From: Owenia fusiformis | Taxonomy: Eukaryota; Annelida; Polychaeta; Sabellida; Oweniidae | NCBI GenBank assembly: GCA_903813345.2 | Contig: CAIIXF020000009.1 | Coordinates: forward strand, 16,825,759 to 16,889,758 | Length of the DNA: 64,000 nucleotides | Reading direction: 5' to 3' | Part shown: positions 2,397-58,876 of the stretch, piece after piece | Numbering within the stretch: position 1 is the stretch's first letter | How the letters are laid out: each line of letters begins with the position of its first letter | Translations under genes and position numbers: made by a program | The notes under the pieces: generated by a model | Seen by the model: the letters and a program-made list of their open reading frames with translations, nothing else | Databases searched by the model: none | What the model was told of the DNA's origin: nothing

Positions 2397-2404
2397 GATA
2401 GTTC

Positions 2405-3687: not shown

Positions 3688-3892
3688 GATAGTTCTCTAG
3701 CTGATTATCTGATACATATGTTAAACAAGCTTGTTTCGTAAGATATTTGGAGCTAAAACATGTTTGATATATATCATTTTCTTCGTAAATTCGTTTATGT
3801 AAGAATAGAAACATTTATATTTATCCCAACTTTTGTATATTTCAGATAGTGATGTATAATATGCAGCAAAGCTGTGGCCTTTTGTAATTTAG

Positions 3893-7194: not shown

Positions 7195-7262
7195 GCGATA
7201 ATAAGTCAAAATTCATTTGTAAAAAATATTAAGAACTTTTGTGTAGCCTACGATGTTCTTAC

Positions 7263-7407
7263 CAGGATGGCCTTCTCCAACTGATTCCGAAGTGAAAAGG
7301 AATGTATCTACGCCATTGTCACCACTTTCATCTGGGCTGTCATCGCTATCTACGTGGTCAAACATGTCTCCCTGCATCGAATGATGATGTACTTTGCTTC
7401 CGGACAT
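7263..7407 (-). CDS. MAT2A: S-adenosylmethionine synthase, first coding exon (partial gene)
   Basis: Methionine adenosyltransferase makes S-adenosylmethionine from ATP and methionine in the cytosol. The 48 codons encode a variable acidic N-terminus (about residues 1-34), then FLFTSESVGEGHP, the strictly conserved ATP/methionine-binding start of the family. The exon ends one base into the next codon at a good donor (G then GTAAGA, intron beginning at 7262). In the family the next residue is Asp, which fits a split GAT codon. The start ATG (7407-7405) has A at -3. No DKxCDQISDA-like continuation is visible between 1 and 7262, so the remaining exons probably lie left of the window. It is head-to-head with UBXN8. 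Family assignment is firm; the MAT1A/MAT2A distinction does not apply outside vertebrates. Confidence 0.86.
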
Positions 7408-8002
7408 TGTTTTACGGCGATCGTCTCGTTTCGATATCTAATGGAAAAGAGACCGATTTAATCCAATATTGGTCTATATATAGTAAAACATTATCACGTG
7501 GTACAATCTATGCTCTTTGATTGGATAATTTTTATAAAAGCTCCTATTTGATTGGTTGATGAGTTTTTAAGAAGCGTGGACAAGTGCTTCTTCGAAAATA
7601 TACATTTTCAGAACATTTTGTCATTCATTAGTCATATGAATCACACACAGAAATACAATGTATACAAGTATTGAAACTGGCGTCGTATTTTGATACCAGC
7701 ATGCTGTATGTTTCCAGAATTCAAGTGGTTTTTGTTTCACAAAAATGACCAATGATAATTGATGTAAGAAAATAAAGTGAGACTACTCGATGTAAACAAT
7801 AACACAACAGATTGACCGAAATGAAAATCCCCCTCCCCCCACTCTCTGTGACCAAGAAAAAATACTGTATATGGTACACTTACTCTATCGAGCTGACAGA
7901 AACTGTGTTCACAGTTATGGTATGCAGAGAGTGGGTGTTCATTTCAATCACTTCTACTATCTGTTCCCTGTGTTCCTGAACATTTTGTTGATCGACTACA
8001 AA
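7408..8002. promoter_or_regulatory. Candidate bidirectional promoter between MAT and UBXN8
   Basis: The 595 bp between two divergent start codons holds a CACGTG E-box (7495-7500), CCAAT-type motifs (around 7461-7471, 7516-7522 and 7549-7556) and a TATATATA stretch (about 7474-7482). That stretch is placed suitably for minus-strand transcription about 70 bp before the MAT start codon. CCAAT boxes and close divergent starts are common in bidirectional housekeeping promoters. Motifs are seen directly; promoter function is inferred. Confidence 0.5.
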
Positions 8003-32000: not shown

Positions 32001-33766
32001 GGTGTAAAAGGTAACGGGTTAAAGTATCAAAAAGGCAAAACTGAATTAAAAACTGTGTATAGGGGAAAAAACTTTCATCTTTTATCTACAAGACCATGCA
32101 AAAAATTTCTGAAAATATTGATCGGTTTGTCTATGGTGTTGATATACTTTTGGGTACATTTTTTTGAGACACCCTATATAGTTGGTGGGGACATTGGTGG
32201 GGACATGTTGTACACATGCAAAATCATGGAAACTACCAATTCATATGAAATCAAAATGGAAACGGGGAGGCGGTCCTCTTTTAAACCATATATAAAAATT
32301 AATTTTATCTTATGTAAATATACATGATGTCCCATTGTAAGGCCTACAATATGATAGGAAAAGCCCAAATAGCTTGTACCACCTTCAACCACCTTTCAAA
32401 AAATAAAGGTTTGTTTCTACACAAAAGTTTTCATGTATGTCTTAGGGTGATGGGTGGATCTACACTTTTTGTTCTCCTGAAGAAAATTCTAATATGACTC
32501 TGCCTCCCACTTCATCCATTAAGCAAGGGAAATATATGGCACTTGCAAGCAATTCTACAGTAGATGAGGGTGATAATTAGACCCACACTTTATGTTTTTA
32601 TGTTTCAGAAAATTGTTTTACCAGATGAGCCAGAAGTAGGGGCCCCAGGAAGTGTCAACATAGCTTTTAGGACACCATTTGGACGGGTCTTTAAACGGCG
32701 CTTCTTGTACAGTGAAAAAATACAAGTGAGACTTAATTCTATTGATATAATTAATACAATCTGTTTCAGTCATTTTGAAACTAAGCTAATCTATGTAGTA
32801 CAGGAAATTATTTTACTGATTCGATGAGTTATATTTACTATAGGAGTGTAATAAAATCCCTGCACCTTGGACCAGTGACATACTGGGTGTCCAGGAAATT
32901 TTAGAGAAATGGACGAAAAAAGTACCTATGAAAATTAGATGATGGTTTGAAAAACAGGGAGAAATGAGAACGAGGAATTTATCTATGAAAACCAGTCCTG
33001 AAGAATATCACAAATACAAAATACCCTCTTGCAAAGGAAGCTGTCTATATTTACCATCACTAACTCTAATGCACCATAATAACTAGTCAAATTTAGTCAA
33101 AATTTATATAACTAGGACTATGCATTTCAAAAGTCCTTATTCTCGGGATAAAGAACTTTACAAGAATCGCATCCCATGGGAAATACTGTGTGTCCAGTTC
33201 CTGACTCTCCTTGGATGGGGGTCTCATGTAAACCTTTGAATGATGCTTTAAGCAACATGGTACCATGAAATTGCTTTCTATACATTCATATAAAATATTA
33301 AGGGGGCAGGTACAGTAATGATCTCTTTTATTTACTGATAGTGTGTAAATATATGCACAGCTCATTTACACTGTTAGAGTTTAAACAGGTAAAAAGGTGA
33401 AAAAGTAGGTACCTTAATTTCGAGTTCCATTGAATTTGGACATTTTGGTACCTTAAATCTTTTAATTCATCAGACACTCAATACATTCCAGGCCATAAGT
33501 TAAGGTGCATGTCACAGGTTGGAGGGTTTATCATAGCCTCCTTAACATAGCTGTCTTATTCTACTATATAGAGCTCTAACTAATGTACATGATTTCTGTT
33601 CCAGATATTATTGGATTTCATGGCAACCCTTGGTTTCCCTGAGAGGGTCTATATGTTAAGCAGCTCATACCCAAGACATTGCATATCAAGTGACCCAGAT
33701 AAAACTGTCTTAGAACTAGAGCTAACCAAGGACTTGGCTTTAAACATAGATGAAAGAGATGACTAG
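8003..33766 (+). CDS. UBXN8: UBX domain-containing protein 8 (ER-anchored p97/VCP adaptor), 7 coding exons
   Basis: Exons: 8003-8081, 10894-11022, 13113-13186, 18226-18345, 23639-23785, 32609-32725, 33605-33766. All introns are GT-AG and phases are consistent, giving 275 aa (human UBXN8 is about 270). Two hydrophobic segments (about residues 8-24 and 34-52) form the ER membrane hairpin. A charged stretch follows (about 70-135, with FMGPAWKGKGDKLG matching the vertebrate block), then a Pro-rich linker, then a UBX domain (about 190-270) in the last two exons. The p97-binding loop reads SYPRH (residues 243-247), a Tyr variant of the usual FPR. UBXN8 tethers p97/VCP to the ER membrane for ER-associated degradation. 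The frame is open back to ATG 7871, but 8003 was chosen for its AAAATGG context and family length. Intron 5 (8.8 kb) holds a 5.74 kb inverted-repeat element 54 bp past exon 5. Confidence 0.9.
8396..9040. mobile_element. 645 bp inverted-repeat element, target duplication AAATATAG
   Basis: Perfect 8 bp duplication AAATATAG at 8388-8395 and 9041-9048. Left end GGTAAAGATTAAAAGG and the complement of the right end GGTAGAGATTAAAACG are inverted. Arms of about 60 bp are rich in GGTGGATTGGATTC. It has inserted into a catggcagag dispersed repeat in UBXN8 intron 1. No coding potential. Confidence 0.85.
9061..9101. repeat. 18 bp perfect palindrome arms, 5 nt loop
   Basis: ATCCCGTTCCCGGACTAT, loop GGTCT, then the exact complement. 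The same motif occurs at 5643-5662 and 6362-6386 inside the 1.3 kb foldback element, so it is probably a transposon end remnant. Confidence 0.75.
9505..9660 (+). repeat. Dispersed repeat containing catggcagagaag
   Basis: Most complete copy of the family also seen at 3893-4040 and 8336-8395. Confidence 0.6.
9867..10063. mobile_element. Short inverted-repeat element ending CAGGCCCATAGCCAGG
   Basis: 197 bp with ends CAGGCCCATAGCCAGG and CTGGCTACGGGCCTG, C/G-rich inner blocks and GGGTTT on both sides (probable target duplication). A truncated copy lies at 18833-18912. Confidence 0.7.
10064..10893. other. UBXN8 intron 1 remainder, nothing recognised
   Basis: AT-rich, no repeat partner or exon noticed inside the window. 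Confidence 0.5.
11542..12493. mobile_element. 0.95 kb element with ~75 bp inverted ends in UBXN8 intron 2
   Basis: Left end ATTGGTATCGATATGGTGAA and its complement at 12474-12493. Similarity continues inward past TTTCTCTTAAACCA. No clear target duplication and no coding frame. Confidence 0.65.
12555..12720. repeat. Short inverted repeat
   Basis: AACATGTTGATATTTC with CTGTAGC on the left is matched by the complement at about 12686-12718. Confidence 0.55.
12769..13070. mobile_element. ~300 bp foldback MITE
   Basis: GAGTTGTTTGTAGAATGAAT on the left is answered by its complement at 13037-13056. Both arms also share CATCAATACACTTTAA-type text around a short centre. It ends about 40 bp before UBXN8 exon 3. 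Confidence 0.68.
13247..13668. mobile_element. ~420 bp inverted-repeat element
   Basis: Ends GGCCATAAG...AGATTCTTTGTT and the complement AACAAAGAATCT...CTTATGGCC. It lies just after UBXN8 exon 3. Confidence 0.62.
13865..15241. mobile_element. Non-autonomous pogo-like element, TA target duplication
   Basis: Flanked by TA. Ends CAGTAAAACCTGTCTAATCC and, complementing the right side, CAGTAAAACCTGTATATCTG. CAGT-AAACC ends with TA targets are typical of pogo/Tigger elements of the Tc1/mariner group. A ~145 bp block is tandemly duplicated inside (about 14398-14545 and 14637-14784). No transposase frame survives. Confidence 0.78.
15259..15669. mobile_element. 411 bp foldback MITE, AAAGGAGCACGTA family
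   Basis: Ends AAAGGAGCACGTAGGTTATC and TGCGATAACTTACGTGCTCCTTT are inverted. The same family recurs at 52645-53217, and a fragment lies near 29620-29680. Confidence 0.75.
15670..16862. other. UBXN8 intron 3, small inverted repeats only
   Basis: A weak ~130 bp inverted repeat at 16599-16730 (GATGTTGTTTCC on the left, GGAAACAACATC on the right). Otherwise no gene or repeat recognised. Confidence 0.45.
16863..17573. mobile_element. 711 bp near-perfect hairpin element
   Basis: Two ~335 bp arms are near-identical inverted copies around a ~30 bp centre near 17210. Ends CACGCCTTACCATCGCG and CGCGATGGTTAGGCGTG. Flanks TCTAT and TCTAC may be a decayed 5 bp duplication. The arms share long text such as ACAGCATTCTCTTAG and TCGGCCCACATAATCGACT. 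No coding role is likely. Confidence 0.82.
17574..18225. other. UBXN8 intron 3 distal part, nothing recognised
   Basis: AT-rich sequence running up to exon 4; no repeat partner noticed. Confidence 0.45.
18631..18760. mobile_element. 130 bp hairpin MITE
   Basis: CATTCTATG and CATAGAATG terminate an inverted repeat whose arms share GGGCAATACCTGTT and TTTCAATGATTTT. Situated in UBXN8 intron 4. Confidence 0.62.
18833..20030. repeat. Dispersed repeat block after a truncated CAGGCCCGTAGCC element
   Basis: 18833-18912 is the left half of the 9867-10063 element. It breaks into text starting GGCTCACACAGTGAGCTTAT followed by GTCCGTTCATCCGTTGGTCC. Such gctcac/gtccgtc starts mark dispersed repeats of invertebrate genomes. 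Parts resemble 36100-36300 (gacctt...ctcaaaagacc text). Confidence 0.5.
20097..20606. mobile_element. 510 bp hairpin element, ends CACTGGTGATCC
   Basis: CACTGGTGATCCGCTCGATT and the complement of AATTGAGTGGATCACCAGTG are inverted ends. Arms of about 235 bp pair around a ~40 bp centre near 20350. ATATA on both sides (20092-20096, 20607-20611) is a probable 5 bp target duplication. Confidence 0.8.
20893..21448 (+). repeat. Six tandem copies of a ~91 bp unit
   Basis: Units start near 20893, 20991, 21082, 21172, 21264 and 21354 with TTTTCAAAAAGCTTTACATT. Two sub-types alternate (GGCGAAATTCCATTAC and GGCCATATTCCTTTAC), suggesting a higher-order unit. Confidence 0.82.
21451..21880 (+). repeat. ~430 bp direct repeat, copy 1
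   Basis: Starts ccattgattatggagattga. Copy 2 at 21986-22415 matches over its whole length. Each copy keeps a minus-strand frame of over 100 codons with an internal MELDxxxPKI-like repetition. No domain; coding unlikely. Confidence 0.78.
21986..22415 (+). repeat. ~430 bp direct repeat, copy 2
   Basis: Second copy of 21451-21880, separated from it by about 105 bp. Minus-strand frame 22046-22420 corresponds to the frame 21511-21822 in copy 1. Confidence 0.78.
22437..22560 (+). mobile_element. Fragment of a LINE-type reverse transcriptase
   Basis: The plus-strand frame reads TTGLKLTIEKTQAMWLGQ, matching the conserved GLKxNxxKTxxMxxG block of non-LTR reverse transcriptases (after the YADD region). 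A 30 bp stretch is duplicated in tandem (about 22480-22540). The rest of the element is not evident. Recognition rests on one motif. Confidence 0.5.
23030..23240 (+). repeat. Imperfect repeats around TACCATGAAATACCGGTA
   Basis: Several copies of accatg...ataccggtaatt text in a simple-sequence-like block of UBXN8 intron 4. Confidence 0.5.
24153..24226 (+). pseudogene. tRNA-like sequence (Ala AGC anticodon arm), acceptor stem broken
   Basis: A box TGGTCTAGCGG and B box GGTTCGAATCC match pol III consensus. The anticodon stem is intact (CTCGC/GCGGG) with loop TTAGCAC, so anticodon AGC. The 7 bp acceptor arms (ATCACGG and ATTCGTC) do not pair, and T runs follow. Either a tRNA pseudogene or the head of a tRNA-derived SINE. 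Confidence 0.6.
24227..26640. other. Inner part of the 5.74 kb element, no gene recognised
   Basis: Contains an open frame 25586-26146 (186 codons, plus strand) with no signal peptide, domain or splice context I recognise. It is not preceded by a promoter-like motif and is treated as chance. Confidence 0.4.
26699..26722. repeat. Perfect 10 bp-arm palindrome
   Basis: CGGCCGATGA, TTAG, TCATCGGCCG. GC-rich hairpin within AT-rich sequence. Confidence 0.6.
26838..26873 (-). mobile_element. Mariner-type terminal repeat remnant
   Basis: The minus strand reads TACAGGGTGTTCCAAAAGTA, the characteristic terminal form of many mariner elements. No partner end was found. Confidence 0.4.
27451..27562. repeat. 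Palindromes ACCGACAATTGTCGGT
   Basis: 16 bp palindromes at 27451-27466 (one mismatch) and 27500-27515, with a half copy near 27550. Each is beside CTCT/AGAG text. Related copies lie at about 28986-29000, 29028-29045 and 29081-29096. Confidence 0.7.
27594..27673 (+). pseudogene. tRNA-like sequence, probable SINE head
   Basis: A box TAGCCTAGTGG and B box AGTTCGAATCC are good. No normal 5 bp anticodon stem forms and the acceptor arms do not pair. A T-rich tail follows. Typical of tRNA-derived SINE heads. Confidence 0.55.
27776..28165 (+). repeat. ~390 bp dispersed repeat, copy A
   Basis: Very similar to 61222-61610 in the same orientation (shared text includes GTTCGATTGA and GATATCAGCGTCC). 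This copy is bounded by TTGAAGCTTA and its exact complement TAAGCTTCAA. Confidence 0.78.
28406..28875 (-). mobile_element. 470 bp hAT-like MITE, copy 2 (target duplication CCGGGGCT)
   Basis: Perfect 8 bp duplication CCGGGGCT at 28398-28405 and 28876-28883. Inverse orientation to the copy at 6724-7194 and almost the same length. Inserted within the 5.74 kb element. Confidence 0.88.
28985..29104. repeat. Clustered TTGTCGGTCCTCTAGCGTG repeats and palindrome
   Basis: TTGTCGGTCCTCTAGCGTG occurs twice about 53 bp apart, followed by ACCGACAATTGTCGGT at 29081-29096. An inverted relative lies at 27542-27560 (gctagagagccgacaatt). They look like multiplied transposon ends. Confidence 0.65.
29583..30470. 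other. UBXN8 intron 5, repeat fragments
   Basis: A fragment of the AAAGGAGCACGTA family near 29620-29680, then a dispersed repeat starting near 29775 (cacatagtgtgg, gtccatccgtctgtcc). No exon seen. Confidence 0.45.
30480..31180 (+). repeat. About four tandem ~175 bp units
   Basis: Units recur at gtcttgtcta (about 30498, 30668, 30863 and 31035), each with TTTCAAATTTTCAGG and gcattctgggtaaatttt text. Related units lie inverted at 63295-63680. An (ATAAT)n tract lies near 30790-30820. Confidence 0.72.
31216..32174. mobile_element. Foldback built from two mariner 3' ends
   Basis: Ends GGGTGTCTCAAAAAAATGTA are inverted copies. Arms of ~240 bp each encode a decayed transposase C-terminus. Minus strand (31407-31520) reads PELLSNVMNNVAVRIQAVIEI up to the stop at 20-residue scale; the plus strand (about 31925-31982) encodes the related PEISNVINNVVVRMQTVIEI then stop. 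A C-terminal LxxVxxxxxxRxxxCI pattern is usual in mariner-like transposases. No catalytic domain remains. Confidence 0.68.
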
Positions 33767-39384: not shown

Positions 39385-42300
39385 CTATTTTTCCGCTATA
39401 CTCTGATCTAGTCTCCGTTTAGGAGGGATAGCAGCTTGGAAGGTCTCATTTAAGAATTTATGGTATGACACTTTTCCAGTCATTTCCTCATCAAAGCTTT
39501 GCATTACTTGATATACATCATCTTCATCAAGTATAATGTTACATAGTTTCAGTACAGATCTGAACTCAGGCACTGAGAGATAGCCACTGTTTATCTTGTC
39601 TAGTTTCTTGAAGGCTCGCCTTAGATTCTTCCAGTCTCCAGATAGCTGAAAACACAAAAATTAAGAAAAATATGATATAGTAATCAATAGAACTAGTCTT
39701 GCACCATGGAAATAGATAATAGGAGGGGTGCAGGAGTTGGCATGATCATGGAGATGACATGAACGTTTTAGTAATCAAGGCTAATTTAACATCTTCAAGA
39801 AATGTTTTGTAAAAAAAATTCATAAATATTTAAAAAGTTAGGAATGACTTACGAATTCGTAAAGTTACGAATCGGCCATTAACAGAACACTTTCGTTAGT
39901 CATTCATAAGTTTTATCGTTCATAAACGAATTTCAAATTGTGACGTCATCTTATATCATTATTTAGCACAAATAAAAATATGATGTCATTTGATATCATT
40001 GCGTGCTGTGATTAAACCTATCTCCGCGATTTCAAAGATTCCCAGCTCAGGAACATATTTGCTTATCATGTAAGAATAGGTGGATATTTTAGCTTGAAAC
40101 TTAGCATGCATATAAAGACCAATTTCTTTTTGCCAACCTGTATACCTTACATAAGAAATGGATGAGAAATATGCCATTCGCAAAGTTATGAAAGGGTCTG
40201 AGGTGCTATTAAAGTTACGAACGAAAGCATACGTGACATCATTTTTTCGTAACTTTGCGAATCGTTCGTAACTTTACGAAAGTTTTGTTAATGCACATTT
40301 ACAAAATTCGTAAAATTAACAATTGACTTGCGAATCAATAACTTTGCAAAAGTTCTGTTAATTACCCCATGGTTAATAAATTATCATAATGGATTTTCAA
40401 AATTAAATAATTATAAGAAGTTTGGTTTTGAATTCTTCTTGATTTTTAATATCAATAAACATCATACCTTTTGCCTGAGTTTTGAAGTGAGTCCAGTAAG
40501 ACCATTCTGTGGGGGCTCGGGAATGTCTGACATGGGCATTTCCGAGACTGGGTGCTGCAGCATGGAGAGCAGGTTGTTGCCATGGCGCCATGTCTGTCGT
40601 TTGGCAGCAAAAGGTTTCAAGAATTCCACATAATTAACTCTGAAATTCAGAAATTTTTGTATTTTTAAACAATTGTCGTGACATATTTCAAATTATATTA
40701 ATAAATAGTATTTCAAAAGAATTTCATCAATTGCAGGAATAAATAAAAAAACAATAAACAGAAATGAAGAAGATACAAAATATATGTACCTTCCATCCTT
40801 CTTGACATCAAACTTTTCTGTAAGCAATTTAAGTTCATGGTCACCAAGATAAACACAGAGCTCCTGAAGAACATCTGTGAACTCATCTTTGCTGATATAG
40901 CAGGTCTTGTAGGGGTCCATCTCAGTAAACTCCTTGTGTAGGTCCTCCCACATGTAGTCAATCTGAAACACAAATACAATAATGTTTGTATGTTTTTGTT
41001 GAAGCTTATACACATTATCTGTTTCACTTTCTTTACTACTAAAATACCCACTTACCAAAATAAAATTGAGATTTTCTATGATTCACAAAATGGTAAAGAA
41101 TTTTTATGATTCCTACCTTTGATTTGAGATTATCATGTAGCATATCTGCAGCACAGTTTAGTTTTCGTGATCTAATTTGGAAGTCAACGTCTCCCTTCTT
41201 TGGGGGTGAAAGTTTGGCATTGGGGTAGGCAGCAGATTTGAGAGAGAAGCCAAAGTGGCGTGTGAACTCCTGGAAGTTGAGAGACTTGTCTTTGTTTGTT
41301 ATGAGGGTCTTCCACAGACTTCGTACCTCACCTCTGCTGATCTCAGGGTCCAGGTTAAACCTAAATATAAAGGATTACACTGATTAATGGATGGTATAAA
41401 TGTGCAGTCAGTAAAGTGTCTTTGAATGACAGCTTGTTCATTAAAGGGGTTTATGGTATAAATGTGCAGTGAGTGAAGTGTCTTTAAATGGCAGTAAGTT
41501 TATTTCTTTAAGGATGGATACGCAGTTTTCTAGTGCTACATTTGTGAGTTCATTTGGTGCTAGAATGTCAAATGTATATGCTCAACTAAATGTGTAACTA
41601 ATTGCTAAATGTACCTTTGTAATAACTTGTAAGCTGTCTCTTGGTTCAACCTCTTGCTGTTCCACTCATCAATATCCTGGAACTCTCTCTCTACCTGCTC
41701 ATATTTGGTGGTGAGCAGCTGCTTGATGATCTTAAACAGTTCATGGGTGGGGCGCCTGGGGGCAGCATCAGCCTCTAGGGGTGGTGACTCCATCACAAGA
41801 CGGTCAACCTCATGATCACCAAAGGGCTCAGGAGACATAACCTCAGGTTGGATTATTACTGATTTACTGTCAAAAAGGCTTGGAGCTTGACCTCTGCAAA
41901 TATAAGATCACTGATTTATTAAATTTGTAAAAGCTAAGTGACAATTTATTATGCATTTGTGATAAAAACAATTGTGATAAATGCATGCTCTGTTCGCTAG
42001 TGATATATCTTATATTCTAATATGATATGTGATGTCACAATAACTAGAACGATTGATTTACTGGTCTTTAATCGAGTATGTATGACCGCTAAATTTCATT
42101 AAGGTAAATAGTTGTTTTTTTGTTTGTTTATCATATTAAAATCATAGCAAAGACCTTGATTCTTTGATTTTATGGCAAACTATATATGACCTCAGGTTTT
42201 ATTCTGGCCATTGCCAAAGACCTCAATCGCTACGTAATTTCAGTCTTTCAATGATGAAAAGAATAATATATTCTGTCATACACGATCAGTGTATTGTACC

Positions 42301-45300
42301 ATAGATCTCGGTCTTTATTCCTTAAATATAATGTTCAGTTCTCATAATATAATTTTACCTTGTATCAAACTGTGCCATGAAGTCAGCATATTTCACCATG
42401 CCCTCATGGTTTAAAGGCACATGCTCAATAAATGTCTGGAATTGTTCATCAGTCATACCAAGATTAAAGCGACTCTCGATGGCTGCCCTGAAGGCTTCCT
42501 GTGAGAGAAGATCAGTGTTTTGTTGGTCAACCTTGTGGAATGTGCCTAGGAGTTGAAGAAACTCTCTCTGGAAGAGGTTCATTAGGTTTGACTCTATAGC
42601 ACTCAGTGATGACCTCGCTCCTGGTGTCTGTGACCTGTTGTACCTGACAATATATATGTTCAAGATTAATCACCTAACATGTAATATACGTTAACTGCTT
42701 TCAAAAGGTGTGTTGTCAAGTTGATGGATGGAGGGAGAGGAGGCAAAAATGTTCATATCATAGTGTTGACATAAGAAATAATCAACTGTTAGTAATAAGT
42801 TGTTTTATGAGTGACTTACTTATGATTTGAGTTGCTAAGGATGTTATGTGTCATTCCAGCTTCACTTCTATCCTGGAATCGGGACAAGAAATCCTTGTAT
42901 GGAACTCCATCTTTTTTGGGCACAATATTACATCTGGAGCAGAACTCGGATAAGTGGGGACGATCAAGTTTCAAGCCATATTTATTCAATACATTCAGAA
43001 AGACATCAAAGCTGACGATTCCTTTATGATCTTTATCATGCTCTGCAAATGCACCCTTCATAGACTTAAAGCCTTCTCTGAATTTAGTTTTCAACCATGA
43101 CTCAACATGCAAGGATCTTTGGCGTTCTTGGACCTTGCGTGGAATTTTTCGCTGCGTTGGACTGCGAGCTGTAAACAGAAAATCATTTTCTATATATGTA
43201 TGTAGTTTAAATCTAAAAACCATTTTAAAGGAATTTTCAATCAACTTAAAAGCTAACCTCCAATAAATGTAGAAATATGAATTTAAAACTTGAACTTACG
43301 TGATAGTTTGTCATCATCTATGGGACTAAGTCTGTCACCAGCTGTGCTACCACGGTGTTGCACAGACACTCCCAGTTTTCTCATCAGGTTGGCTCCATTT
43401 ATGGTACCACTGTTAGTAGGGTCATAGCTGTAAGCAAGAATGAACAGTGTAACAAAATAGTTCATTTAGCTGGGCTTTTTATAATAAATAATTGAAATAC
43501 ATAGAATTCAACATAGATGTGTGGACAAGACTGTCAAGTACATGTTCCCATGTTTCTTTAGCTTAATTCTAATACATAAACTTCCAATTTTGGAAGCAGA
43601 CAGCAAGACACACTTACCGTTTCCATAATCGATCAAACTCGTCATCATCCAAGAAATAATTGTTTTTGTTCAACATAATGCGGAACTCCGGCTTCAGGAT
43701 ATGTGTGGCTCCATCTGGATTTGATTGCGGGAACATGTCAGCTGCATCAAGAATTCTGGAAATGCATAATCCAAGAACTGAACAATCTTTCAATCTTGGA
43801 AATCCAGGCAATGCAAATTAAATCTGTTGACATTTTACACTTGAGCTCAGTTTAAAGATGTCACTAATGTACTTGTCATTTACGATACTAATTTTGGTTT
43901 TAGTAAAAAAAATCAGATGCAATGTGTGTTATGCCTCTAGAATCCAGTAATCAATTACAAATTCTGGTACGGCATGTCAAGAAGTGAATAATACTTGAGT
44001 TTTTCAAAGTGCATATTCTAGTCAATAACCATTATGATGTACAAAACCACTAACCACTTTCAACAAATGGCTTATTCGATTGGTCTGTATAGAAGCAATA
44101 TAGCAAACTGAGCTGAATAAATGTTGATTTCCATTCCAACAAGAATAATAACTAGATTTTGGAAATTGAACAAGTTCAATTTCAGACTCCAGATCTAGAC
44201 TTTTTTTTAGCCGAGTCATCCAGAATAAGCTGAGTCATCCAGAAAAAGATGGATGGATGGATGGAGGAAAAAGGAAGGAAGGATAGAATAGAATAGGAAA
44301 GAATGATAGAATAGAATAGGAAGAAGGAATAGAATAGGAAGGATAGGAAGGAGAGGATACGAAGGAAAGGTAGATAAGAAGGATACGATAGGATCACAAA
44401 GGAAGGATGGATGCATTTTTCAATATTTTCTTCTCTACTCTTGACTTTCTATCAGGATACCATCAGATCGATTTTTCTCGAAATTTCAAAACGCCATAAC
44501 TTTCGAACCGGAAGTCGGATCGAAATTTGGTTTGCAGACTCAGATTCCTGAGAAAATTCTACCTTTAATTCATAACTCATATGTTAAATTTTGAGAACTT
44601 TTTATTTTGACCTACTTTTCGGACACCATATCTCAAAAGTGGGTCGAAATACTTTCTGACGGCAAAAGGCTAACACTATTAGCACCCTCTTTCCTACCTG
44701 TATACAAAATTTTAAAGCAAATCATTTAAATATAGTGTCAGAATCGCAAAAATAAGGAAAAACTATGAATTTGACCTAGATTTTGACCTAGGGATTTTGG
44801 TGTCCAAATTTTGAAGTTAGGTAGCCTTCGAGGTCCCCTTGTTACATAGGCTTTCATTATTTTAAGCTGTACTTAGTCTATATCTCGTATTTTACACTTC
44901 AAAAAAATCTTTTTTCCCATTGACATAACATGGGGCACCAAATTTAGCGATTTTTGAGCTTTCAAAATGTCATAACTTCCGAACCGGAAGTCGGATCAAA
45001 ATTTGATTTGCAGATTCGGATTCCTGAGAAAATTCTATACTTAATTGATAACTAAAACGTTAAATTTGGAGATTTTTTTATTTTGACCTACTTTTCGGAC
45101 ACCATATCTCAAAAGTGGGTCGAAATACTTTCTGACGGCAAAAGGCTAACACTATCAGCACCCTCTTTCCTACCTGTATACAAAATTTTAAAGCAAATCA
45201 TTTAAATATAGTGTCAGAATCGCAAAAATAAGGAAAAACTATGAATTTGACCTAGATTTTGACCTAGGCATTTTGGTGTCCAAATTTTTATGAAAATAAG

Positions 45301-48300
45301 GTTTTGAGGTCCCTTTCTTTTATGGGCTTCCATTATGTTTAGCTGTGCTAAGTCTATATCTCGTATTTTACACTTCAAAAAAATATTTTTTCCCATTGAA
45401 TTAACATGGGGCACCAAAATTAGCGATTTTTGAATTTTCAAAACGCCATAACTTCTGAACCGGAAGTCAGATCGAAATTTGGTTTTCATATTCGGAATCC
45501 CGAGAAAATTTCCTATAAGACTGATATCCCGGACATTGGATTCGGAAAACCGAATTTTTGGACCTCTTTTTCGGACACTGATATCTCGAAATCGGTTTGA
45601 GATACCAAAAAACTAAATCGACCCAAGAATTTCTACTTTTTTATGAGGAACACAATGAAAAAAAACCGGATCGAAAATATTGAAGGACGACTGAGAAAAT
45701 CGAAAAAAGTGACAAAGTACTGGATTTGACCTAGTTCTTGACCTTTGACCTAGATAAAAATTTGACCCAATTTCCCACCAACTAGATACTGAACCTAAAT
45801 AAACTGTATTATGGTTCTTACTGGATACCTCATAGTTACTGAAAAAACTCCCAAAGAATAATAATAACTAGACATGTAAATTGAACAAGTTCAATTTAAG
45901 ACTCCAGATTTAATTCTTTTTTTAAGCTGAGTCATCCAGAATACTTGTAAGCTGAGTCATCCAGAATAAGCTGATCGAGTCAGCTAGAATTTAGACATTT
46001 AGACAACTCTCCATTTTTTATCTTCGACTCCATTGGCTTAACATGGGGATATCATCATATCGTCTTTTCAAGACTTCAAACCGCTGTAACTATTTAACCT
46101 GAAGTTTATACAAAATTTGGTTTAAAGATTCGGACTCCTGAGAAAATTCTACCCTTAATTCATAACTCATACATTAAATTTGGAGATTTTTTTATTTTGA
46201 CCTACTTTTTGGACACCATATCTCAAAAGTGGGTCAAAATACTTTCTGACGGCAAAAGGCTATCACTATAAGCACACTCTTTGCTACCTGTATACAAAAT
46301 TTCGAAGCAAATCATTAAAGTGTAATGTCAAATTCGCAAAAATAAGGAAAATTATGAATTTGCCCTAGATTTTGACCTTGGCATTTTGGTGTCCAAATTT
46401 TAAAGCTAGATAGCCTTCGAGGTCCCCTTCTTTTAAAGGCTTTCAGAATGTTAAGCTGTACTCAGTTTATATCTGGTATTTTAGACTTCAAAAAAAATCT
46501 TTTTCCCTATTGACATAACATGGGGCACCAAATTTAGCAATTTTTGAGCTTTCAAACGCTATAACTTTCAAACAGAAAGTCGGATCGAAATTTGGTTTGC
46601 AGATTCAGATTCCTCAGAAAATTCTATCCTTATTTCATAACTCATATGCTAAATTCGGAGAACTTTTATTTTGACCTACTTTTCGGACACCATATCTCAA
46701 AAGTGGGTCAAAATACTCTCTGAAGCAAATCCTAAAAGTGTAGTGCCAGAATCGCAAAAATAAGGAAAAACTATGAATTTGACCTAGATTTTGACCTAGG
46801 CATTTTGGTGTCCAAATATTGAAACTAGGTAGCTTTTGAGGTCCCCTTCTTTTATAGGAATTCATTATCTTAAGCTGTACTCAATCTATATCTCGTATTT
46901 TACACTTCAAAAAAATCTTTTTTCCTTGACTTTCTATCAGGATAACATCAGATCGATTTTTCTCGAAATTTCAAAACGCCATAACTTTCAAACCGGAAGT
47001 CGGATCGAAATTTGATTTAAAGATTCGGATTCCTGACAAAATTCTACCCCTTATTCATAACTCAAACGTTAAATTTGGCGAATTTTTATTTTGACCTACT
47101 TTTAGGATACGCCATAACTTTGGAACTGGAAGTCGGATCGAAATTTGGTTTGCAGATTCGGATTCCTGAGAAAATTCTACTCTTAATTCATAACTCATAT
47201 GTAAAATTTGGAGAATTTTTTATTTTGACCTACTTTTCGGACACCATATCTCAAAAGTGGGTCAAAATACTCTCTGACGGCAAAGGCTAACACTATAAGC
47301 TCACTCTTTGCTACCTGTATACAAAATTTCGAAGCAAATCCTAAAAGTGTAGTGCCAGAATCGCAAAAATAAGGAAAAACTATGTATTTGACCTAGATTT
47401 TGACCTAGGGATTTTGGTGTCCAAATTTTAAAGCTAGATAGCCTTCGAGGTCCCCTTCTTTTATAGACTTTCAGAATCTTAAGCTGTACTCAGTCTGTAT
47501 CTGGTATTTTACACTTCAAAAAAATCTTTTTTCTCATTGACATAACATGGGGCACCAAAATTAGCGATTTTTGAGCTTTCAAAACGCCATAACTTCCCAA
47601 CGAAAAGTCGGATTGAAATTTGGTTTGCAGATTCGGATTCCTGAGAAAATTCTACCCTTAATTCATAACTCATAAGTTAAATTATGAGAAATTTTTATTT
47701 TGACCTACTTTACGGACACCATATCTCAAAAGTGGGTCAAAATACTTTCTGACGGCAAAAGGCTCTCACTATTAGCACACTCTTTGCTACCTGTATACAA
47801 AATTTTGAAGCAAATCCTAAAAGTGTAGTGCCAGAATCGCAAAAATAAGGAAAAACTATGAATTTGACCTAGATTTTGACCTAGGCATTCTGGTGTCCAA
47901 ATTTCGAAGCTATGTAGCTTTTGAGGTCCCCTTCTTTTATAGGCATTCAATATGTTAAGCTGAACTCAGTCTATATCTTGTATTTTACACTTCGAAAAAG
48001 CCTTTTTTCCCATTGACTTAACATGGGCACCAAATTTAGCGATTTTTGAGATTTCAAAACGCTATAACTTCCGAACCGGAAGTTGGATCAAAATTTTGTT
48101 TGCAGATTCGGATTCCTGAGATAATTCTACACTTATTTGATAATTCACACGTTGAATTTGGAGAATTTTTTATGTTCTGACCTACTTTTCGGACGCCATA
48201 TCTCAAAATCGGTAAGAGTAATCAAAAAACGGTTTGCCTTACGGAATTAGCTTTTTTTCTAAGGAACATGATGAAAAAAACCCGGAGCGAAAATACCAAA

Positions 48301-51300
48301 GGACGACTGAGAAAACTTGTGAAATAGCAAAAAGAGACGATTTGACCTAGTTCTTGACCTTTGACCTAGATAAACATTTGACCTAATTTCCCAGAAACTA
48401 GAACTCATTACCTAGTTGACTATGTTAGCAGATTTTAAAAAGTCCCTCTAGTTGCTGAGAAAACGCGGAAAGAAAGAAAAATAATAATAATAATAATAAT
48501 AATAAGAAAACTGGCAAAAGCAATAGACTCCAGATGAAATCTGGAGTCTAATAAGAATACTGGCAAAAACAATAGACTCCAGATTTTCAATCTGGAGTCT
48601 AATAAAATATCAAATATGGAAAATATGGGCCTTCTACTTGAACATGAGTTTGAATCTTACATGTTTGGGTGAACATTGATTTTCCCCTCTTGGCGATCTT
48701 TTGAAAACAAAGCCAATTCTTAGAGTTCAACATGACACAACAGACTGCAGACATTGCAATATATGTCACTTTGAGCTTATTCCCAAACCAGATGGATTTC
48801 ATTAATCAATATGTATCTTTGCTAGCTAGCTACTGGGATACTGTAATGTATTAGCCTGAAATATTCTTTACATGTGTATTAATGCCCATGGTTATACAAA
48901 GATTACTTAAGGCTGATAAATCATTACTGTCTCCCAATGGCTAGCTTGCAAAGAAACATATTGATAACGTTTCATCTACAGGAATGCTTTAGGCAACTAA
49001 TATAGAAGAGCACTCAACATTGTTCCCTTTTCCAATAAAAGTTCACAAGGCACAATCATCCTGACATTTGAAAGTATATTTGTTAACGGATATGAGAAGT
49101 GAGACCTATTTATCTTTACAAAGACATTATTGTCTAATGTCTTTTAATTGATTGCCTATTGGTATTAACAGGTATTAACAACATAATCATGGTCTTACTG
49201 AGGTTGGAACCCTCAGGATTGGAACCTATGAAACTATAAAAAATACTGGTGAGAGGAAGCCAATTATTGTGCAGATTCAAAATATGAAACATGATACAGT
49301 AATTTAATTCCTCGTAAGTTCATATTCTAACTAGAATGTATAAGTCTATAATATTCTGATAGCTGTTGAAAATGTTATATTATATTATTTGTTCAAGAGC
49401 TTTTAGTTTTATTATCCCATTGTAAACACAATTTAAAGGAATTATCAAAGAATTCAATTAATTTCAATATTATTTATTTTTGGTGGTAGACAGAAAATGT
49501 CAATATATTATTGATGAAATTTGTTTCTACAATGATCACGAGCAGCTTTCAGTTGTTTAAGTGTAAGGACAAATATTTACAATAGTCACTTGTATGAATG
49601 TGCCAGTTTCTGTTAGATCTCTGGTTTTACATGTATACAGTCCATGGTTGCTAGGTCCAAGTATTTCATTATATCATGTCAGAGGAAATATCAAACAAGA
49701 ACTTTAAAAAAGTTGAACTCCCCCATATTTTTAAAATTTAAATTTAGAATTACCAAAGATTAATTTGAAGATAAATACACACTTGTCAATTATTGAGTAG
49801 AAGTTTTGATTTGATAACATATTGCATTTCGCACAAATACAATATTTGTCAACATAGCGAGATAAGTGGGTCAATAAATAGGATTCCATTTTGAACACCT
49901 CCAATGACACAATTACCTTTAAAATGATAACATCACATCGCCCTTGTCTCTGAATGATCTTTATGTAAATGTATCTCTTGATTTGTTAATTACCTTTGTT
50001 TGGCCTTCTCTTTTAACTGTATGTGGACCTCATCAGCAGTTGTGTTAGCCTTGTCACTGAAGGTTCTCTGGATAGGGTCCATCCAGTTTGGATATTCACT
50101 GTCATGGCGCTCTCGGAAAACTTTGAAGAAGTCTGCGAAACTTATAACTGCTCTTTGTCCAAGTCCCAATCGATTCATAAGGCGACCAAACACAACTTGG
50201 TTCAGTGGGCGGCCAATTAGAGTTACTACGATTCTGGAGAGTGCCTCTCTGTAAAGGAAAACAAAATTGATTTTAAAGTATTTTTATTGTATTACTATTA
50301 TAATTTTCTTTATATTGGGTTTCTGGTCTGGTTTACTGGTCCTTATGTATGAATTTATAACCTTATTGTGCCTTATTATGCTTGAATTTATAACCTTATT
50401 GAAAATCATCACAATGGTAACTGTCTTACCGGCTGCAGTTGCCCTTGCCTTCAGGGTCATTGTCTTTAAAGCGCTTCCTCAGTTCAAAGTAGTGGTGGTT
50501 TGCTTTGTCCTTCAACACAGATTCCAGCTGCAAGAGAATGGGGAAATGTAACTACTCTCATCTGTATGGAGCATTCAAACATATATCAATAATATGACAC
50601 ATTGTATGCAAGCAAAAGCCAAATATCATAGATAATGTATGTCACTTTACCATTTTACTCATTTTTACAATAATGATTATAATTCACTTTTCATTTGTCC
50701 ATCATTTTGGCAGTATCAAATATGCTTGTAATTTCGGGTACAAGAAACCCCATAAAATCATATTGACTGATCAACTAACCTCATCAATCTCTAGTCTTGC
50801 TTGGGCTGAAGCTGTAGACATTCTGCTAGCAGCTCTAGAGGCAACATCACTCCTACTGGTGGCTGGCACACCTGCAATATTAATACACATTATCATACAG
50901 TTCTAGAGGCAACATCACTCCTACTGGTGGCTGGCACACCTGCAATATTAATACACATTATCATACAGTTCTAGAGGCAACATCACTCCTACTGGTGGCT
51001 GGCACACCTGCAATATTAATACACATTATCATACAGTTCTAGAGGCAACATCACTCCTACTGGTGGCTGGCACACCTGCAACATTAATACACATTATCAT
51101 ACAGTTCTAGAGGCAACATCACTCCTACTGGTGGCTGGCACACCTGCAATATTAATACACATTATCATACAGTTCTAGAGGCAACATCACTCCTACTGGT
51201 GGCTGGCACACCTGCAACATTAATACACATTATCATACAGTTCTAGAGGCAACATCACTCCTACTGGTGGCTGGCACACCTGCAACATTAATACACATTA

Positions 51301-54300
51301 TCGTACAGTTCTAGAGGCAACATCACTCCTACTGGTGGCTGGCACACCTGCAACATTAATACACATTATCATACAGTTCTAGAGGCAACATCACTCCTAC
51401 TGGTGGCTGGCACACCTGCAATATTAATACACATTATCATACAGTTCTAGAGGCAACATCACTCCTACTGGTGGCTGGCACACCTGCAACATTAATACAC
51501 ATTATCATACAGTTCTAGAGGCAACATCACTCCTACTGGTGGCTGGCACACCTGCAACATTAATACACATTATCATACAGTTCTAGAGGCAACATCACTC
51601 CTACTGGTGGCTGGCACACCTGCAACATTAATACACATTATCATACAGCTCTCCTTCAGGTGTTAACACCATGCTTCTCCTATTTATTATTCTATTTTAT
51701 TTTCCATTATATTCAAAGGTTTGTCTTTTTGCACTAATGGAGAGAAAAATAAATGGTAAGTGTGCATTTTAATTTTTTTTATTCCTTTTTTATTGAAGTA
51801 ACTTGGACGATCTAAATAAGAATTATTGAAATATACTTAGTAAAAATGTGTGACATTTTAAAAGAATGATTGTACTTCAAATTAGTCACTTGAGATGTTT
51901 TTCAATTATGTTTTCAATAGCAATTGCCTTTGTAACTTTATGATTATATTGACCATAAGGATTAATTTCCTGATGAAATGTTCAACAAATATTGAAAGAA
52001 AGCTTATGCTACTTCTAATACAGTACAATGTATGTGCATCCAGCTATCTATTTTGCTCTTAACAAAACCTTGAATCTCAACCGCATTGGTTCGTCTTGTT
52101 TTATGTTCGGGATTGAGGAATAGCATGAAATAATATTCATTTAAAAAGCCATTTGGATCCAACACTGGGCAATGGCTGTATCAAATGTGGTCACTAAAAT
52201 TCAATTAATCTCAAAGATTACTATTACTGAGACCTTATTTGAAATAATTAGATTATTGATTATATGGTAGTTTCAGTGAGAGTATTTGTTTTAGATATTT
52301 GCCAAGCTTCTAACATAATTGATGCACTAGTAACTGATAAATGTCAAAAGTCAGGACTGCTAAAGTTTTTGCCGTAATGAAAAGGTAATGAAAGTACAAT
52401 TTTTTATGAGATGAGAAATGATATTTTGTTTAATTAAGTATTTCTTATTATTTATAAATCACTTTTTTCTCTGGAATATAACTCATGACTGAGATAGGAA
52501 AGGAACTTTAAGTAGTATATATGATTCTACCATGAAATGGGTTCATATTAAATGGAAATCAATGTCACTGACAACTGTCTCTATCCAATGTGATGCAACA
52601 ATGGCAAATCAATGACTTCAGGTTAGACTGTTAGGGGTGATTTCAAAGATTTGCATAGGTTATCGCAAACAATTTCAGACAGTTATATCTTGGATTAAGA
52701 CTATTTTCTGACTATGAAGACAGGTATATCTTTTAGATCCATTCACTATCTCAAAGAAAATTATATACAGTGATAATAAAGTCAAACAGACTTGGAAATA
52801 TAACTAGCAATCAACCCATCAACACACTTTTCCAAAGATGTTGACCCATTTTCACCAAAAATCAACTAAAATTAGTGTTCCCCATGTCATTTCTCCATTG
52901 AAAAGTCTCATGCAATCCATTGGTTTCAACTTTTCCTTTTATGAAATAGAACATGTCTCAAAACACATTCTAATTATGCATTCAACAATATAATATAAAA
53001 GGTTGCATTTTTGGTGAAAATTAGGTCAACATTTTTGTATGTTGATTGGTCCATTGCCCCTTTAACTTAGGTCTGATTAACTAAATCATAATTATATCCA
53101 CTTTTCTTGAATATGACAGATGGGTCTAAAAGATACACCCATGTTCATGATCAGAAAATATTCAATATTCAAGTTAGAAACATGTGAAATTGTTTGAGAT
53201 AACCTATGTGCTCCTTTAACATTATTATCATGCATGGTCATAATAAGGGAACATTGAGAGAAATCTTACATTCTATTTAAATATTTTGCATCAATTCATG
53301 CAAATAGTTTTTCATGAAAGTACATATTTTTATTGTTATTTATTATCAAAAAGTTGGACATTCTGAGACATACCCTTAAATGATATAATGGTGTAGTGTT
53401 ATCAATCCAATGCTTGTTTAGTAAATGGCTTATAGCTTATTGTCTTAGTGATAGGACAAGGGGATATAAACTTTGAATAACACGTCTCCACAATTTTGGG
53501 TTCAAAGTGATTCTATATGTATATGTTAAAATGATCTTGGTTCAAAACAATTTAATAACAGTTTACAGTTCCAGGTTTATACATCTAAGTGAACGAAAAC
53601 CATTTAAAAGTCTTACATAAATCTGATTGATTACTTTGCTATCATTGTCATTTTTATGCTAAACAAATGTAAGACTTCAAAGTTTTAACATTGGATTGTT
53701 TTAAGTAACAGAACCAACATTTTACAAGTTATTTCACACTCCACCTTTTATTGTTATGACTTGTTCTCTTGTTTTCATGACCAATACCAAAGGAATTGAA
53801 ATTCAGAGTTTTTTATTCCTTAAAGTTTCAAGTTTAATAAAATACAATAAGATATTTTTATATTCAATAGTTTTTCAAATGGGCAAACATGGTTCACATT
53901 TTAATTTCTTCTTCTTTCAGATTAAAATCTTAAAATATTTTTCATGTTTACTTTCTTTATAAATAAAAAAACTCATTTAACCCTAAAATGCTGTTTAAGT
54001 GGTTAGCTACATTACTTGTAACAATTCAATTTTATTTATTCTTTTTTAATACATTTTGAATGAAAGAAAAAAGACTTTTTTCATAGACCAAACTTAACAA
54101 TAGAAAACGAATAATATATTTACCGAACACTGGTAGTCTAGTTTTACTTGGGTCCCCCTGTGTGACCTCTACCCCCTCAGGTATAGCATCGGCATATCCT
54201 GTTGTAGAAAAATGTGGAATACGATTTTGTGATGACATCCTCCCGGTGGAACTATGTGACTTTCTGGGTGATTGTAGAGATTTGGGGTATTCTACTTCAT

Positions 54301-54508
54301 TAGCCATAGAACGGCCAGAGGCAGACACCCCACGATTCTGTGAAACAAGTCCCATTTCGGATCCTGGCCTTGGAGTTGTGATAGCCATTGCTTGTATATC
54401 CAATCTCTCAGGGTTTCCCAATCTGCTAAGAGGGTGTTGTATTTCTATTCCTACCCGTTTCAGACTCATCTGAGTGCCGGGTCGGCTCTGTATACCGACT
54501 TGCGACAT
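39385..54508 (-). CDS. EFCAB6: EFCAB6-like multi-EF-hand protein, 13 coding exons
   Basis: Exons in transcript order: 54508-54124, 50871-50780, 50527-50430, 50248-49994, 43755-43618, 43427-43300, 43168-42820, 42643-42359, 41893-41615, 41360-41117, 40962-40790, 40639-40468, 39645-39385. Every junction keeps frame; total 952 aa. A Ser/Pro-rich N-terminus (about 1-160) is followed by about seven EF-hand-pair regions to the C-terminus. Recognisable blocks include DDEFDRLWKRYDPTNSG (exons 5-6) and the final LRRAFKKLDKINSGYLS. Most loops lack some calcium ligands; LDKINSGYLSVPEF and MDPYKTCYISKDEF keep the loop-end Glu. EFCAB6 (DJBP) is known as a DJ-1/androgen-receptor partner and as a doublet-microtubule inner protein of cilia and sperm. 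Human EFCAB6 is about 1500 aa; this copy aligns with its C-terminal part and lacks the first EF-hand repeats. Intron 1 (3.2 kb) and intron 4 (6.2 kb) hold tandem repeats. The start ATG has A at -3; an upstream non-coding exon cannot be excluded. Confidence 0.88.
39790..40375. mobile_element. Foldback in EFCAB6 last intron
   Basis: Multiple forward and inverted copies of cgtaactttacgaa-type text, with outer text around TTAACAGAAC on both sides. Boundaries are uncertain. Confidence 0.5.
44235..44400 (+). repeat. Low-complexity GGAAGGATAGAATA tract
   Basis: Purine-rich simple repeats. The Ser/Leu/Phe-rich minus-strand frames over it are artefacts. Confidence 0.8.
44455..48430. repeat. Satellite-like tandem array, unit ~477 bp
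   Basis: Units recur at the ccataactt...ccggaagtcggatc block near 44491, 44970, 45447, 46559, 46979, 47110 (short), 47586 and 48061. Each carries gacctagattttgacctag and cacttttaggatttg-like text. Some units are truncated or fused. The array fills most of EFCAB6 intron 4. Minus-strand frames with LGQNLGQIHSFSLF recur because the unit recurs. Confidence 0.85.
48484..48602. repeat. (AAT)n tract and two AGACTCCAGAT hairpins
   Basis: An AATAATAAT run is followed by two hairpins with stem AGACTCCAGAT/ATCTGGAGTCT and loops gaa and tttca. Related text agactccagat recurs at 44184 and 45898, the left edges of the satellite region. Confidence 0.7.
48603..49993. other. EFCAB6 intron 4 remainder, nothing recognised
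   Basis: AT-rich. No EF-hand-like exon seen; the flanking exons join in frame without one. Confidence 0.45.
50833..51648 (-). repeat. 12 tandem copies of a 68 bp unit containing a splice acceptor
   Basis: Exactly twelve 68 bp units. On the minus strand each contains an intron end (TATTAAT...TGCAG), the acceptor, and the first ~39 nt of EFCAB6 exon 2. Only the unit at 50833-50900 joins the rest of the exon. Units differ at a few sites (aatatt/aacatt, tcata/tcgta). Confidence 0.95.
51649..52644. other. EFCAB6 intron 1, nothing recognised
   Basis: AT-rich, no repeat partner noticed. Confidence 0.4.
52645..53217. mobile_element. ~570 bp foldback MITE, AAAGGAGCACGTA family
   Basis: Shares GGTTATCGCAAACAATTTCAG, split here as two shorter matches, with 15259-15669, and closes with GAGATAACCTATGTGCTCCTTT. 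The left terminal bases are lost. Lies in EFCAB6 intron 1. Confidence 0.7.
53218..54123. other. EFCAB6 intron 1 proximal part, nothing recognised
   Basis: AT-rich; one 68-codon plus-strand frame without domain. Confidence 0.4.
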
Positions 54509-57286: not shown

Positions 57287-58876
57287 ATGGCTAAGCTAAC
57301 ACTGGCTGTGCAGCAAGTGCATATGTTGAAGATAATCATATTATGTTGCGCTATACATAACACAAATTCAGCTAAAATATTAACATATCCATATGCTCAA
57401 GGATTTAACTCAAGAATGATGAACATGGAGAAAATGGCAGTCATATTGTCAGAAAATAGTCATGATGTGTCCATCATTTCAAGTAGCAAGTACAAGGCAG
57501 TAGAAAGACCCATTAAGGATATAACAGTGTATCAATTCTCTGTACCTAATGACACCATGCTGCTTACAGATCAGGCAGTATTAAACACAATTCTTGATGA
57601 GGGTGTCAGTCCTCTGGAGGTTATGAATGTAATAGGGAAGTTGCACGTCACATTCTGTGAAGGGTTACTAATAGACAAAGCTTTACTGGATACATTGAAG
57701 AGATCAAACTTTGATATGCTTATAATGGATGTTGCAGAGCCAAATGCGTGGATACTTGCTCACTATTTAGATGTACCTATTGTTTTGTATGCAAATGAGG
57801 GAGCGTATACTGATGTACCTTTTGGAGGACTAGGTCAAGTAGTGCCATACTCTTTTGTCCCCCATACATTTTCCCCATTTTCTGATGAAATGAACATATG
57901 GGAACGGTTTCAGAATGTTTTGTTAAATGTTGGGATTCAACTGTACGTCTGGAAGACATTTTCCTCAATAAGTAAAATCAGGAACAAGTATAACATTAAT
58001 GTGACTGTCGATATTTCTGAGCAGAATATACAGAGTACTGCACTGATTTTAAGTAATGATCATTTTGCATTTGACTACCCTCGACCTCTTCTGCCAAACC
58101 ATATTTACATTGGAGGTTTGTACTATTCACCTCCTAAATCTTTACCAGACCACATGGAGGCCCTAATGCAAAACTCGGGAGAAAAAGGAGTGATCATTGT
58201 AGCATTTGGGTCAACTCAGCATCAAATGTTAAATATAAAGCTCATTGAAATAATGGCTGAAGTATTTGCTGCTTTACCTCAAACAGTCATCTGGAAATAC
58301 AGTGGTGCCTCTTTGAAAAGATTGGGAGAAAATACACATGTGTTTTCTTGGATTCCTCAAAATGATTTAGTCGGTCATCAAAAAACAAAATTGTTTGTGA
58401 CACACTGTGGTGTGAGTTCTACTTACGAGAGCCTGTTACATGGAGTACCTGTTGTTGCTATACCGATTGGAGTTGATCAATTCCATCATGCATTACAGCT
58501 GACTAACAGAGCCAAAACAGGAGTACAAATAAAAAAGGATTTCACGAATGAAGAACTTAAAAGCAGCATAACATCAGTGCTTGGAAATGACACATATTTG
58601 AAGAATGCTAAATATGTGTCTGAACTGATGCATGATAATCCCATACCACCCAAGGACACATTATTATACTGGATTGATTATGTTGCTAGACATAAAGGTG
58701 CAGACCATCTCAAATCTAAAGGAATGAACCAACTCAACATTTTACAGTATTTCTTATTGGACATTGTAGGCTTCATTATATTGGTCATGTTTAGTTTCTT
58801 AAGCTTGATATTCTTTTTCTGTAAGTTGTGCATATGTAAGTATTGCAACTTCAGGAAGAAGCAAAAGAGTGACTAA
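57287..58876 (+). CDS. Membrane UDP-glycosyltransferase (GT1/UGT family), single exon
   Basis: UGTs transfer sugar from a UDP-sugar to small lipophilic acceptors in the ER lumen. The frame is open from ATG 57236 (546 codons). The Met at 57287 (strong AACATGG context) gives 529 aa, the usual length, with a signal peptide ending about residue 29. Numbers below count from 57236. The 44-residue UGT signature lies at 372-415 (WIPQNDLVGHQKTK... to ...GVDQ). A C-terminal membrane helix (about 506-531) and a short basic tail end in KQKSD, a K-x-K-x-x ER retrieval signal. Asp165 matches the catalytic-dyad Asp. Two oddities: the usual catalytic His (SHW/SHF position) is Arg60 in NSRMM, and the signature has THCG instead of THGG. 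There are no introns, unlike the other genes here. A polyadenylation signal lies 20 bp after the stop. Sugar donor and acceptor cannot be deduced. Confidence 0.92.
   Translation: MAKLTLAVQQVHMLKIIILCCAIHNTNSAKILTYPYAQGFNSRMMNMEKMAVILSENSHDVSIISSSKYKAVERPIKDITVYQFSVPNDTMLLTDQAVLNTILDEGVSPLEVMNVIGKLHVTFCEGLLIDKALLDTLKRSNFDMLIMDVAEPNAWILAHYLDVPIVLYANEGAYTDVPFGGLGQVVPYSFVPHTFSPFSDEMNIWERFQNVLLNVGIQLYVWKTFSSISKIRNKYNINVTVDISEQNIQSTALILSNDHFAFDYPRPLLPNHIYIGGLYYSPPKSLPDHMEALMQNSGEKGVIIVAFGSTQHQMLNIKLIEIMAEVFAALPQTVIWKYSGASLKRLGENTHVFSWIPQNDLVGHQKTKLFVTHCGVSSTYESLLHGVPVVAIPIGVDQFHHALQLTNRAKTGVQIKKDFTNEELKSSITSVLGNDTYLKNAKYVSELMHDNPIPPKDTLLYWIDYVARHKGADHLKSKGMNQLNILQYFLLDIVGFIILVMFSFLSLIFFFCKLCICKYCNFRKKQKSD

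Follow-up and report, generated by a model that had tools for sequence, protein, structure and literature searches.

A predicted EFCAB6-like gene on the minus strand

In the window, by which we mean the whole stretch of 64,000 nucleotides that was analysed, the minus strand carries a predicted animal gene for an EFCAB6-like, calcium-binding EF-hand protein (39385-54508); it has 13 predicted exons, which together make 952 codons and a stop. The gene model consists of exons predicted from the sequence and joined via splice signals, the intron/exon boundary discussed below being predicted in the same way, and both protein and Pfam matches speak for it. The model protein matches EFCAB6 chains of solved structures, with a best E of 3.4e-53, and the portion encoded by exons 3-13 matches the Pfam EF-hand families EF-hand_11 and EF-hand_7; it is this match over the repeated EF-hand domains that places the gene with EFCAB6. 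Predicted exon 1 (54124-54508, minus strand) is coding from its ATG, ends in TCG|GTAAAT and is left in phase 1. Predicted exon 2 (50780-50871, minus strand), which was placed by frame, GC and codon score, is 92 nt long, is entered in phase 1 and left in phase 0, and has the donor GAG|GTTAGT. Skipping exon 2 would break the frame, with a stop after 142 residues. Exon 1 and the start of exon 2 are not proved by homology, since the first query residue aligned in the best EFCAB6 chain is 154, close to where exon 2 ends, which leaves exon 1 and the greater part of exon 2 unmatched in that chain. There may be extra, unmodelled exons between 54124 and 50871. At 952 residues the model falls short of the five chain sequences that bear the name EFCAB6, abbreviated or in full, which have 1,410-1,516; either the EFCAB6-like protein is a shorter form, or exons are missing from the model, the 6.2-kb intron 4 being one place where they could lie. 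That same intron holds two arrays of a satellite-like unit of 475-476 bp (44480-45510 and 46976-48208), which BLAST found to be 87-90% identical to one another.

The rest of the window has features of its own. On the plus strand, a long open frame at 57305-58873, apparently a single exon, matches the UDP-glucuronosyl/glucosyl transferase family (Pfam PF00201, E 2e-95). On the minus strand, the open frame at 7216-7437 encodes a 74-aa piece that matched no Pfam family at E 0.001 and presumably resembles the start of S-adenosylmethionine synthase. A search for inverted repeats with arms of at least 120 nt and a spacing of up to 4 kb returned a large one at 5640-6387, with 327-nt arms that are 98% complementary and lie 94 nt apart. 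This repeat looks like a recent fold-back element, and it is flanked by a second pair of arms (5201-5321 and 6387-6507; 121 nt, 95%). At 2403-3689, 16862-17573 and 31216-32174 lie more inverted repeats, whose arms measure 124-247 nt and are 87-89% complementary.

A tandem array at the predicted start of exon 2

Across the predicted boundary of intron 1 and exon 2, TRF reports one tandem array (50830-51652, minus strand) with a period of 68, 12.1 copies, 98% matches, 0% indels and a score of 1590, and the unit alignment delimits the same feature. The 68-bp repeat itself is far beyond chance. The region 50833-51648 resolves into twelve 68-bp units, each with the final 30 nt of intron 1 as predicted and 38-39 nt of exon 2, and a script alignment of the units puts their acceptors at 50871 + 68k, with k running from 0 to 11. 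At all twelve of these the minus strand reads TTGCAG|GTGTGCCAGCC or, in fuller view, TTGCAG|GTGTGCCAGCCACCAGTAGGAGTGATGTTGCCTC. The exonic part that was copied into every unit is 50833-50871, of which 38 of the 39 nt are the same in the inner units. In BLAST the units were 97-100% identical to one reference unit, and a short-query BLAST found no further copies of the unit in the window.

What variation there is among the units can be read from their alignment. Ahead of the acceptor, seven units have ATGTTGCAG and five (k = 8, 4, 2, 1, 0) have ATATTGCAG, and a single T>C ahead of acceptor k=6 turns TATGATA into TACGATA. The junctions read AGAACTG at the 11 inner positions and AGAGCTG at both outer ends, such that the inner units are homogenised and the edges are distinct. 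This pattern bears on whether the count of twelve could be an artefact of assembly, the true number of units being different, down to one. Near-identical units are a known assembly risk, and the legend of a supplementary file reports that one globin mirage of amphioxus (a minisatellite of the kind considered below) appears aberrantly assembled in its draft version (PMC3087553). Here, however, the variants are scattered without block periodicity and both outer edges are distinct, and a miscount would leave the feature standing unless the true count were one. We regard an assembly artefact as highly improbable.

The copied 39 nt, which are the first of predicted exon 2, have a GC content of 56%, which was reached by none of 10,666 overlapping intron 39-mers and by 225 of 2,299 exon 39-mers of the gene. 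For the in-frame codon score of the 39 nt, 73 of 4,623 open intron stretches do as well or better, and 322 of 779 true coding stretches have the same score or a lower one; the codon table behind it was trained on the EFCAB6-like gene itself and one other gene rather than held out. An alternative frame of the same 39 nt scores higher (7.51 over 13 codons vs 4.23 over 12), which weakens the codon argument for an exonic origin and leaves the GC argument unaffected.

The initial annotation had described twelve 68-bp units, each carrying the intron end, the AG and about 39 nt of exon 2, and both TRF and the unit alignment confirm them at the positions it gave; its view of the array as a minisatellite containing a 3' splice site, with twelve near-identical acceptors, agrees with all 12 units of the alignment. 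Its assignment of an EFCAB6 gene with exon 2 at 50780-50871 is supported by the 13-exon frame, the match to EFCAB6 chains and GC. We rejected the position of the array on a junction as a sign of function, chance overlap being common. A random 823-bp array overlaps one or another of the gene's 24 junctions in 11.8% of placements within the window and in 45% of placements inside the gene span; when 20 hand-merged tandem arrays are considered together, one or more of them overlap a junction in 64% of trials.

Acceptor choice and reading frames

Acceptors were scored with an in-window matrix built from the other 11 introns of the gene (11 sites). The twelve array acceptors score either 3.7 or 4.4 bits, which among 3,343 minus-strand AGs puts them at percentiles 95.3 and 96.1, and the last of them (50871) falls in the lower class, at 3.7 bits. 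Since the twelve score alike and the last is in the lower class, site strength gives it no preference. The other 11 acceptors of the gene span 0.4 to 14.5 when each is left out of the matrix in turn, and by that standard the array acceptors appear to be weak yet credible sites. No other acceptor of the gene has a pyrimidine tract as poor as theirs (10 of 20 positions, longest run 2). In the intronic 30 nt of the last unit (50872-50901, minus strand), which end in TTGCAG, the branch-like ATGAT (-22) and ATAAT (-19) are matched only by a relaxed motif, and the strict motif YTNAY occurs only at -9, too close to the AG; the branch motif is weak evidence, because its strict form is absent from the final 50 nt of four of the gene's other 11 introns. 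RNA structure was also considered as a basis for acceptor choice and found to be unsupported: a 364-nt part of the array, the one with the last five acceptors, is less stable when folded than shuffled versions of it (z +3.27, with 100 of 100 shuffles at least equally stable), as are three 68-nt pieces (z +1.88, +1.51 and +2.11).

With the same matrix, AGs inside exon 2 that would give starts at 50832 and 50805 score 3.8 and 3.7 bits, like the array acceptors. The first of these starts (CTCTAGAG|CTGCTA) lies just within the edge of the array, and were exon 2 to begin there, the units would be a plain intronic minisatellite in which no functional splice site has been captured. Its score of 3.8 bits compares with 3.7 for 50871, the resulting 53-nt exon would be in frame (1 + 53 = 54), and the unique part is open in the corresponding frame, with a score of 10.84. 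Moreover, the AG in question is missing from the inner units, which read AGAACTG, so the choice of acceptor would be unambiguous. Nevertheless, 50832 would be a GAG acceptor in a gene whose other 11 acceptors comprise 10 CAG and one TAG, and a TAG only 2 nt upstream would yield the wrong frame. The 39 nt that would be dropped are, in addition, the very ones whose GC and, to a lesser degree, codon score point to exon sequence. On balance a start at 50832 seems unlikely, and we continue with 50871 as the predicted start of exon 2.

Taking 50871 as that start, the transcript spliced to k=0 is full length, while entry at any upstream acceptor with full retention of the units below it leads to a premature stop in 11 of 11 cases. 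The stop falls after 143 residues in ten of these and after 144 for k=7, where a variant changes TGA into CGA and the following codon, TAA, ends the frame. The initial annotation had foreseen that the frame would meet a TGA inside the unit, which holds with the exception of k=7. It had gone on to argue that only the most downstream acceptor is productive, and that splicing must pick the last of the twelve or nonsense transcripts arise. The prediction of nonsense transcripts stands as long as the units are retained in full. Beyond that the two statements are too strong, because the AG|GT present at each acceptor would permit a second splice to the last AG, restoring the mRNA, and a 15-nt microexon would offer another route that keeps the frame.

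These two routes follow from the letters of the unit. Every unit reads AG|GT, and whole 68-nt units are GT...AG segments; eleven such blocks, each running from GTGTGCC to TTGCAG, occupy 50872-51619 (minus strand). Computed splicing of exon 1 to an upstream unit, and then from the GT at that junction to the last AG, yields an mRNA identical to that of the model. The array thus has an AGGT in each duplicate, and whole copies could be spliced out with the mRNA unchanged, as in a Rogers-type arrangement. The second route uses the acceptor of a unit with its CCA|GTAGGA, which would define a 15-nt in-frame microexon adding VPATS per unit. We enumerated the paths that pass through a single pseudo-exon on the way from exon 1 to the last acceptor; they fall into 33 classes, two of which are productive, namely the AG|GT re-splice and the 15-nt microexon, each from 11 of 11 upstream units. 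A 41-nt pseudo-exon ending ACT|GTATGA was discarded, as one to five consecutive copies stop early in five of five cases.

One could imagine from this that the array is used at the RNA level, with AG|GT or CCA|GTAGGA giving zero-length or 15-nt exons by recursive splicing or as a variable (VPATS)n linker. That the only productive classes are these two routes is in keeping with such use, as is the fact that chains of 0 to 11 microexons always keep the frame. The strength of the donors is ambiguous, the two matrices available, an 11-site in-window matrix and human donor frequencies, being in disagreement. By the human frequencies CAG|GTGTGC has 8.3 bits (percentile 98.7), inside the 5.0-10.3 range of the gene's 12 predicted donors, but drops to 4.4 bits, below all 12, at the junction that remains after exon 1 has been joined, and the in-window matrix puts GTGTGC only at percentile 77.8. 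Conversely, the in-window matrix ranks CCA|GTAGGA higher than the exon 2 donor (percentile 95.2 vs 91.3), whereas the human frequencies give it 2.9 bits, again below all 12 donors of the gene. Furthermore, the introns removed would measure 53 or 68 nt, where every other intron of the model has at least 131 nt, although a jump across several units would take out more, and AG|GT is automatic for any exon that begins with GT. We treat the re-splice and microexon routes as possibilities suggested by the unit, not as findings, and think RNA-level use of the array quite unlikely. A stronger proposal would have the array on its way to becoming a device that acts on RNA, the AG|GT of each unit serving for recursive splicing and the unit also holding a potential in-frame microexon of 15 nt; we hold this to be very unlikely. 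If it were true, how much of the EFCAB6-like mRNA is productive, or how long the (VPATS)n linker is, would depend on the number of units, and that number could differ between individuals.

Proposed origin of the array and comparison with mirages

The 7-bp AGAGCTG occurs at both edges of the array, at 51646-51652 and 50830-50836, and when the single-copy flanks are joined the two copies lie 68 bp apart. Outside the array, 58 of 62,559 breakpoints, in 7 distinct places, have homology of at least 7 bp at a spacing of 68 bp. The AGAGCTG pair suggests a microhomology-mediated duplication, and we infer that the first duplication probably went through this repeat in the single-copy ancestor, followed by slippage or unequal exchange, during which one junction G>A would have spread to all inner junctions. 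This appears to be the simplest account of the array.

Tandem minisatellites that span exon-intron boundaries have been described in amphioxus under the name of mirages (PMC3087553), in the globin genes BflGb6 and BflGb9, Adh3, troponin C and PGBD5, the last of which was added as a mirage in PMC3902484, where troponin C and Adh are also named. By these reports they are minisatellite-like tandem copies of an intron/exon boundary, as here, where a tandem-repeat unit spans a boundary predicted from sequence. We consider it likely that the array is a minisatellite of the mirage type, formed by tandem duplication over the intron 1/exon 2 boundary of an EFCAB6-like gene, and that its extra copies leave with intron 1. 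Exon 1 would be joined mainly to the acceptor nearest to the exon 2 donor, a choice by exon definition, that acceptor being the sole one to yield the 92-nt exon. Where an upstream AG is picked first, the AG|GT junction would permit a second, restoring splice. Removal with intron 1 is most likely what makes the extra copies tolerable, and the twelve-unit array is most likely silent. For the amphioxus mirages, RT-PCR and the Adh3 data suggest that regular splicing is not interfered with (PMC3087553), and the two reports together describe it as undisturbed and the number of units as varying between haplotypes (PMC3087553, PMC3902484).

The likeness extends to particulars. According to the same accounts, the BflGb6 unit comprises the 3' end of an intron and the 5' part of exon 2, like the present unit, its inner units are homogenised with distinct edges, and many units of the amphioxus mirages retain AG/GT signals. 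There are differences too: the unit is 68 bp long here, vs a reported 150-160 bp in BflGb6, 157 bp in BflGb9 and 10-72 bp in Adh3; there are 12 units, vs 6 and 3 in two BflGb6 haplotypes; and identity is 97-100% to one reference unit, vs 81-100% in BflGb6. The host gene, EFCAB6-like, differs from the amphioxus mirage genes. Amphioxus GC is about 41%; that of the window is lower, at 34%. If the host is not a lancelet, mirages would extend beyond the group described in PMC3087553 and PMC3902484.

Mirages were proposed as a source of new introns (PMC3087553), and related events are reported from other groups. In the potato RdRp gene an intron was gained from a duplicate crossing an intron-exon boundary, which comprised the 3' side of the intron and the 5' side of the exon, like the array unit, and in fission yeast there are introns spanning several 24-bp AGGT duplicates; in the Rogers model, as in fission yeast, the AGGT of each copy supplies the GT and AG for removal of whole copies, as it could here (PMC4974935). 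In contrast to intron gain by tandem duplication, the present locus shows only copies of a predicted boundary, which may simply lengthen intron 1. In humans, variable internal tandem repeats in segmental duplications include minisatellite variation at an exon-intron boundary that may create novel introns; these share with the present array a minisatellite at such a boundary and differ from it in concerning paralogues and in averaging about 4 units of 30 bp (PMC2812944). The array may be an early stage on the route by which tandem duplication has been proposed to lead to new introns, and twelve near-equal acceptors in one predicted intron would amount to a natural experiment on how the spliceosome chooses among equal 3' splice sites. 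The phenomenon is already known: the array shares the anatomy of the amphioxus mirages and is a new example of it, in a predicted EFCAB6-like gene.
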